In this document: piece by piece, positions 121 through 52,371 of the stretch
How the letters are laid out: the number at the start of each line of letters is the position of its first letter
Position numbering within the stretch: the stretch's first letter is position 1
DNA from: an uncultured Chlorobiaceae bacterium
GTDB lineage: Bacteria; Bacteroidota; Chlorobiia; Chlorobiales; Chlorobiaceae
Length of the DNA stretch: 64,000 nucleotides
NCBI GenBank assembly: GCA_903824045.1
Contig: CAIJVD010000013.1
Span: 1-64,000 of the forward strand
Reading direction: 5' to 3'
Position numbers and translations under genes: made by a program
Notes under the pieces: generated by a model
What the model was told of the DNA's origin: nothing
Databases searched by the model: none
Seen by the model: the letters and a program-made list of their open reading frames with translations, nothing else

Positions 121-143
121 ACGTTCACAACAAATTCAACTTA
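121..143 (+). repeat. Solo copy of a RAYT-element end
   Basis: These 23 bases (ACGTTCACAACA then AATTCAACTTA) match 51113-51135, the left end of the RAYT transposase element, with a single mismatch. No transposase lies next to this copy. It is therefore either a solo end left by a lost element or a terminal repeat shared across the genome. Confidence 0.6.
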
Positions 144-144
144 C

Positions 145-345
145 GGCACCATATACCCGCGAATCACGACGATTCGGGGTGGCTTGTTTGGTTGGCGTGG
201 TCTATGCGTTGGTATCCACCGGGGATTTGCATCCCCGGCTAGGAACATGTCGCTCCTCTGGAGCTTGGGGAATTCGGGGGCGACGGCGCAAATGCCGTAG
301 GGACGGCATGCCGGTAGCCATGGGTGCCAACCCATGGAAAATGGC
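145..345. repeat. Intergenic block of four perfect hairpins
   Basis: Four perfect inverted repeats lie in about 180 bp: CGAATC/GATTCG (160-176, loop ACGAC), CCGGGGAT/ATCCCCGG (219-238, loop TTGC), GCTCC/GGAGC (252-264, loop TCT) and CCATGGGT/ACCCATGG (318-337, loop GCCA). No convincing gene occupies the interval. The GCTCC-TCT-GGAGC core recurs at 10972-10984 downstream of purF. The block sits immediately downstream of the Wzi-like gene and probably also ends or protects that transcript. It resembles a composite REP/BIME-like element. Confidence 0.6.
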
Positions 346-51099: not shown

Positions 51100-51269
51100 G
51101 AAAAGTTAGGGGACGTTCACAACAATTTCAACTTATTCACAACTCCGTCTCACAATCAGATTCACAGCTGCGGCAGATATCCCAGAAAAGTTAGGGGACG
51201 TTCACAACAATTTCAACTTATTCACAACTCCGTCTCACAATCAGATTCACAGCTGCGGCAGATATCCCA
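51100..51269. repeat. 85-bp exact tandem duplication at the RAYT gene end
   Basis: 51100-51184 and 51185-51269 are two identical 85-bp copies in direct tandem. The unit includes the left element end and the last 17 codons plus stop of the RAYT gene. Only the second copy is joined to the gene; the first is a detached coding fragment. Confidence 0.9.
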
Positions 51270-52291
51270 AGCAAGCGCGCCGCTCCCGCATAGCTCATCC
51301 CAAGCTCCCGAACATACTCCACTGCAAGCTTTTTCCGCAATGCCGAACACTCCCGCATTCGACACCCGCCCTGCATAGCCAGCACCATTATACCCGCCTT
51401 TTCACATGCGATCTTTAACCGCTCTTCGGCTTCTTCATCCCTGGAAACAGCCGGTAGTCGCTCTTTTACCGAATCTTCAACCGCATCAAGAATCTCGCGA
51501 ACAAAATCTCCGCTACCCAATATACGCTCATCACTAAACTGTTTCTCCCCCCGATTCCTCAGCGACTTTACCTCGGACCATCCGCCTATCGAACGGATCA
51601 ATCCTCCCCCCGTCAGCTCCTCTTGACGCCCAAGACCGAACTCGGATGCAACAAACTCACTGTAGGCCTTCCGGGCGGAGGACTCTCGTTCTCCGAAATA
51701 TCCAAGCACATGCACTCTATCCTGCCAATCATGCTGGATCTTGTTCATCACAACTGCATGCCCGCTCCACCGATAACTCTCAAGCTCCTCAACTGATCCG
51801 ACAAGGCCTGCTCGCAATGGATTGAGATGAATATAGCTGACCAGCCTGTGGAAGTAGGGTTCCTCTTCGCAGACAATCGATTTATACCTGTTCTGGAAAA
51901 GATGTCCGTGCCGCTGGTGCCTGCGATTGTACCATGAGGCATACCCTGTTAACAGCTTACGCATGAAGGTTGACAGACCAAGAGCTCCGCTTTCCAGCAA
52001 AATATGAGCATGATTGGTCATCAGAGCCCAAGCGAATATTTTTGTCCCGGTTGCCGCTGAAACTTTCCCCATCCGGGAAACAAAAAAAGTGCGATCTGCA
52101 TCATCGGAAACAATGCGATTCCCTTCAATACCCCGCACCATAACATGATGCAGTGTGCCTGGTGCATCCAGTCGCGCGCCTCTCGGCATGGCAGTTTATA
52201 GTCAGAGGTTATATTAACCGTATAGTATCGGAATATTACGGATATAATACAAACACAAAGAAGTTAGTTTAGTTTGTTGTGAACGTCCCCT
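51108..52291. mobile_element. RAYT-bearing element with 18-bp inverted ends
   Basis: AGGGGACGTTCACAACAA at 51108-51125 (again at 51193-51210) is exactly inverted at 52274-52291. The interval holds one gene, the RAYT-like transposase. The element lies between the SAM hydrolase and the rpoD terminator and interrupts neither. A solo copy of the left end is at 121-143. No flanking target duplication could be identified. This is unlike typical IS200/IS605 ends, which are usually non-inverted hairpins. Confidence 0.7.
51218..52189 (-). CDS. REP-associated tyrosine transposase (RAYT), Y1_Tnp family
   Basis: RAYTs are single-copy relatives of IS200 transposases that process REP hairpins by HUH single-strand cleavage. 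The 323-residue protein has the catalytic HUH pair H60-A-H62 in MTNHAHILLE and the nucleophile candidate Y119 in SYIHLNPLRAGL. The family segment RHGHLFQNRYKS (about 93-104) is present. A C-terminal extension (about 255-323) includes a DnaA-like helix-turn-helix ending ARLLGISAAAVNLIVRR. The catalytic motifs look intact. The gene is flanked by inverted 18-bp ends and its stop lies inside the 85-bp duplication. Confidence 0.9.
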   Translation of the reverse strand: MPRGARLDAPGTLHHVMVRGIEGNRIVSDDADRTFFVSRMGKVSAATGTKIFAWALMTNHAHILLESGALGLSTFMRKLLTGYASWYNRRHQRHGHLFQNRYKSIVCEEEPYFHRLVSYIHLNPLRAGLVGSVEELESYRWSGHAVVMNKIQHDWQDRVHVLGYFGERESSARKAYSEFVASEFGLGRQEELTGGGLIRSIGGWSEVKSLRNRGEKQFSDERILGSGDFVREILDAVEDSVKERLPAVSRDEEAEERLKIACEKAGIMVLAMQGGCRMRECSALRKKLAVEYVRELGMSYAGAARLLGISAAAVNLIVRRSCE

Positions 52292-52306: not shown

Positions 52307-52340
52307 AAAAAAAAAGGCACCGGATTGTTTCCGATGCCTT
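52307..52340 (-). terminator. Rho-independent terminator of rpoD
   Basis: AAGGCACCGGA and TCCGATGCCTT (52314-52340) pair with one C-A mismatch. On the minus strand it is followed by nine T residues. It lies 32 bp past the rpoD stop. Confidence 0.9.
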
Positions 52341-52371
52341 GAAAAGTGACGTAAACTGCCTTGTTGGCATC

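Follow-up and report, generated by a model that had tools for sequence, protein, structure and literature searches.

The closest described systems to the unit studied here are the TIRYT/TIRtron elements (Di Nocera et al. 2013, PMC3733652). As presented in that paper and in PMC6006769, they combine a long Y1 transposase carrying an HTH tail with flanking inverted repeats that bear a GGGG-type motif, and with moderately abundant dispersed copies of the terminal inverted repeats (TIRs), found in dimers or clusters; their end consensus, GGGGWSAS, covers the majority of examples, not all. PMC6006769 equates them with TnpA_REP subclass 2.1, where it puts RAYT group 1 of Bertels et al. 2017, and ranks this subclass as the second largest of TnpA_Y1. 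No biochemical study of any group-1 RAYT, or of subclass 2.1, was found in the literature. Two other systems come near. REPtrons, the group 2 and 3 TnpA_REP systems of E. coli and Stenotrophomonas, carry GTAG-tagged hairpins, and GTAG guides their cut, which falls at CT or CA (PMC8266576). The IS200/IS605 elements (IS608, ISDra2) have a short TnpA (~150 aa) and subterminal hairpins, transpose as intact insertion sequences (IS), and are marked by near-identical multiple copies.

We analysed a stretch of 64,000 nt, hereafter the window, in which a RAYT gene lies between inverted ends. Its features are the following.

51218-52189, minus strand: RAYT/TIRYT gene of 323 aa, Y1 HUH transposase with C-terminal HTH (from sequence, Pfam and fold match).
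52264-52291, minus strand: left (5') terminal inverted repeat, with the exact 18-mer at 52274-52291.
51193-51220, plus strand: right (3') terminal inverted repeat, proximal copy, with the exact 18-mer at 51193-51210.
51108-51125, plus strand: outer reiterated copy of the right end, matching AGGGGACGTTCACAACAA.
51100-51184, plus strand: unit 1 of an 85-bp perfect tandem duplication, starting with GAAAAGTTA directly followed by GGGG, 9 nt outside the tag.
51185-51269, plus strand: unit 2 of this duplication, holding the real 3' end of the RAYT gene.
52307-52341, minus strand: terminator-like hairpin of an rpoD-type gene (from sequence and alignment with relatives).
121-273, plus strand: repeat of ~150-160 bp starting with the TIR of the unit minus its GGGG tag; its family is found elsewhere in the genome.

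Exact copies of the 18-mer AGGGGACGTTCACAACAA lie at 51108-51125(+), 51193-51210(+) and 52274-52291(-), for a chance expectation of 0.03 at up to 3 mismatches in the whole window. The 18-bp inverted pair announced in the first-pass annotation is real, and the exact inverted match between the ends of the unit reaches 19 bp (TAGGGG...). That annotation had, however, paired the left end with 51108-51125, an outer copy within the 85-bp duplication that it had missed: the inverted match stands, and of the two right-end copies 51193-51210(+) lies closer to the gene. The inner edge of the right end (51193-51220) overlaps the TAA stop codon of the RAYT gene, and the duplication copies the last codons of the gene together with the right end. 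No matching direct repeat indicative of a target-site duplication was seen across the two flanks of the unit.

The open reading frame, 51218-52189(-), is intact, as had been reported. The protein matches PF01797 (Y1_Tnp, E 4e-10) and has both H60-A-H62 (HUH) and Y119-IHL-N123-P124 (Y---NP), the fixed residues being invariant in the alignment; it also matches the NCBIfam model for REP-associated tyrosine transposases, with a score under the cut-off of that model. A C-terminal HTH_23-like match at 284-320 (E 0.0015, under the Pfam cut-off) reaches E 2e-4 when the tail is searched alone, and the terminal helices are present in the AlphaFold model (mean pLDDT 82). A sequence search of the PDB gave no match; by fold, the best match of the model is 4er8, the E. 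coli RAYT (TnpA_REP), ahead of the ISDra2 and IS608 transposases. As a side observation, the RAYT frames at two other loci (L040 in G009, L043 in G019) run without a stop into a lipoprotein gene, which we take to be MsrB-like, giving frames of ~500 aa that could reflect overlap, readthrough or fusion.

By the published descriptions of the class, the unit of the window is most likely a TIRtron, i.e. a group-1 RAYT (TIRYT) gene between matching inverted ends. The Y1 HUH and Y---NP motifs of group 1 are there, and so is the long protein (323 aa) with a C-terminal HTH, which in TIRYTs is of the HTH_23, HTH_28 or DnaA-like type. The unit also has the GGGG tag and an inverted repeat of 18-19 bp. Its motif, GGGGACGT, departs from the GGGGWSAS of PMC3733652 at two of the eight positions, having G where the consensus has A (position 7) and T where it has S (position 8). 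With groups 2 and 3 the unit shares the catalytic fold (4er8), HUH, Y---NP, and short copies of flanking sequence dispersed in the genome, whereas GGGGACG inverted repeats take the place of their GTAG-tagged hairpins, no pair of which was seen on reading the flanks of the RAYT units in this genome. With IS200/IS605 it shares the fold and, by prediction, the Y1 HUH chemistry. In contrast to these elements it has matching inverted repeats and a protein about twice as long, and the other copies in the genome are only 82% and 37% identical to it. The 37% copy is a third, distant Y1 transposase gene with a 286-codon frame (G000:C35:69471-70004, L029). We also weighed a link to CGTC-tagged REPs and abandoned it, since such repeats are described as having no dedicated transposase.

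We then asked how general these ends are. Homologues were taken from Chlorobiaceae, Desulfobacterota and other phyla, 94 of the genes having enough flank. GGGACG was found within 170 bp upstream in 86 of them and the inverted motif downstream in 67; the corresponding counts for control 6-mers were 0-4 and 1-8. The first-pass annotation had raised the possibility of a new end type, on the premise that RAYTs are usually flanked by REP hairpins. The data do not support a new type. The premise fails for group 1, of which GGGG-type inverted repeats are the published mark, and the unit is a real, well-defined example of a known transposase kind, whose ends belong with the published TIRYT/TIRtron ends. 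Searching the literature for the GGGGACG end brought up nothing relevant, and the one hit to GGGGACAG that was inspected proved to be a primer.

The end consensus is bipartite and spans ~27 nt: the GGGGACG tag comes first, a middle part follows in which a T and an A are conserved, and the inner block resembles ACTTA. The middle is specific to each element. For elements picked by the tag alone, regardless of end-to-end match, the left and right ends of the same element agree, over the 14 nt that follow the tag, at 11.5 positions, a value never reached in 20,000 permutations; ends of different elements agree at 6.5, and against the element with the nearest protein the match is 9.8 (P = 6e-6). 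At the rpoD site, the variable part reads CACAAC at both ends in this genome (G000), CATAAC at both ends in G015, and is of the CTCGAC type in G007, where the two ends also agree. The ends thus differ between species yet agree within each, which argues that they still function as a pair with their own enzyme.

Copies of the ends are also dispersed. A search of the genome and its relatives for the 18-mer, as the first-pass annotation had advised, gave few places in relatives and 28 here (up to 3 mismatches), that is ~17 loci with tandems merged, the exact count being uncertain because contigs C6, C18 and C32 end in or near a ~160-bp repeat to which some of the ends belong. One member of this repeat is the one at 121-273 of the window, and members lie on contigs C3, C6, C18 and C32. 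Most of the ~17 loci are without a RAYT. The 15-base core (up to 1 mismatch) gave 23 places, versus 0-6 in each relative searched. On one contig (G000:C7, positions 2350, 6511, 7703 and 9600; L152), four GGGGACGTTCG-type ends that share an orientation are spread over 7.3 kb, and segments between them are repeated.

Tandem reiterations are seen at left ends of RAYT units as well as at right ends. We counted direct tag pairs no more than 130 nt apart, and measured the matched length on the outer and inner sides of the tag. The outer match was bimodal, either 0-2 nt, as by chance, or 5-12 nt outside GGGG (median ~7). A peak at 5-10 nt was predicted, and the prediction recorded before a new set was viewed, made of 41 genomes reached via homologue loci and 389 genomes of one class. 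This validation set is largely, not wholly, separate: one event, L273 (= L235), is common to it and the discovery set; this event was left out of the first, one-strand count and kept in the both-strand count. On one strand, 8 pairs fell at 0-1, 11 at 5-10 and 2 at 11. With both strands the distribution kept its shape: 36 of 72 tag pairs were at 5-12 nt and none beyond 12, as compared with 38 of 102 in the discovery set. Among exact tandems, 15 of 17 fell in the 5-12 nt range in the discovery set (10.2 expected under a random duplication phase, P = 0.003) and 11 of 11 in the validation set (6.6 expected, P = 0.001), the P values being modest because many units are short. The border is a band rather than a single position, and about half of the tag pairs have no shared flank. 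This restricted outer border seems undescribed: neither it nor the matching of left and right ends across homologues is mentioned in the accessible parts of PMC3733652 and PMC6006769.

We consider it likely that the unit is a TIRtron whose enzyme nicks at a set distance outside GGGG, yielding reiterations, solo ends and, rarely, insertions of the whole unit. The RAYT would recognise its own end sequence and, by way of a 5'-phosphotyrosine link, nick one strand on the outer side of the GGGG tag, ~6-9 nt away from it. Tandem reiterations would arise when copying starts at the nick, stops at a variable point and is followed by rejoining, and the same nick-derived rejoining or partial copying would give dispersed solo ends and, on rare occasions, whole-unit insertions. 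That the outer border is the nick site, which strand is cut and that copying starts from the nick are all inferred. The wider proposal, that reiterations of GGGGAC ends record the cut of group-1 RAYTs, made at a fixed distance of 5-12 nt (~7) beyond the tag with little regard to the sequence of the flank, and that the copying seeds families of solo ends, is put forward tentatively, with somewhat more doubt than belief. No conserved dinucleotide was apparent by eye at the putative cut, unlike the cut between C and T in the studied groups. A distance-based rule, if true, would set them apart from the RAYTs studied so far, which follow a guide dinucleotide. If the border is the cut, it provides a concrete substrate and cut position for an in vitro test of subclass 2.1, and past RAYT activity becomes readable from genomes alone. 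The proposal also suggests a route by which short non-coding copies of ends could arise.

Could the tandem copies stem from ordinary replication slippage at the G-run or at a panhandle, with no transposase involved? GGGG tracts and inverted repeats can stall the polymerase, and a border that is a band and not one nucleotide would suit such a process. On the other hand, microhomology at the junctions is mostly 0-3 nt, and the inner match of long-flank pairs varies from 6 to 76 nt, against a narrow 5-12 nt at the outer border. Moreover, random 6-mer pairs decay geometrically, with 39 of 2237 at 5-12 nt, far from the proportions seen for tag pairs in both sets. We regard slippage as unlikely, and a nick by the RAYT as the better account of the reiterations.

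The history of the unit was read from its site. In 13 relatives rpoD adjoins the SAM-hydrolase gene without a RAYT unit, so that the unit is an insertion, as the check for empty sites suggested in the first-pass annotation was meant to reveal. Of these junctions, 11 measure 24-251 bp (G002, G005, G006, G008, G016, G022, G024, G029, G031, G032, G034), and the other two (G009, G011) hold other DNA. In G007 and G015, as in the window, a RAYT in the same orientation directly follows the same rpoD-type terminator hairpin, but the gene beyond the RAYT is another one in those two. Since the rpoD-side insertion is common to the window genome and these two other species, in which it is intact, at dS 0.64-0.94, it is old and inherited in place. 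Among the rpoD-site copies dN/dS is 0.10-0.14 (dS 0.41-0.94), and the value of ~0.13 indicates that the window gene is under purifying selection and was thereby retained.

This long vertical retention under selection, together with the lack of identical copies, would also be expected of a fully domesticated RAYT, kept for a host function, whose ends are fossils of an old transposon. Fossil ends accord poorly, however, with the agreement of the ends within species and their divergence between species at the orthologous rpoD site, and with the many solo ends and the perfect reiterations of 85, 42 and 38 bp in this genome, which, being perfect, are probably recent. Domestication appears improbable to us, and the TIRtron reading given above remains preferred. 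That the unit is a currently active IS jumping whole is very unlikely: inverted ends, a second unit and empty sites in relatives speak for it, but the two units differ at 18% of residues, their end sequences are not the same, and three species share the rpoD-side insertion.

The suggestion that the unit may still be mobile is borne out in part. In its favour are the empty rpoD sites, the dispersed ends, and the second unit of this genome (82% identical, with different end sequences), which lies between hemN and a Gfo/Idh gene, a site with gaps of 63-84 bp and no unit in seven relatives. Against it, the rpoD-side insertion is shared with two other species and no identical full-length copy of the window unit was found, so that present activity is unproven. 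In G026, a RAYT with a similar terminator adjoins an FKBP gene. A one-ended move of the unit was considered there and set aside, because a neighbouring gene for a 254-aa secreted protein travels along, which makes a rearrangement more likely. In the same genome, the rpoD-type terminator with ~56 bp of flank is present both at the rpoD site and at the other RAYT site (L126 on G026:C8, L124 on G026:C50).
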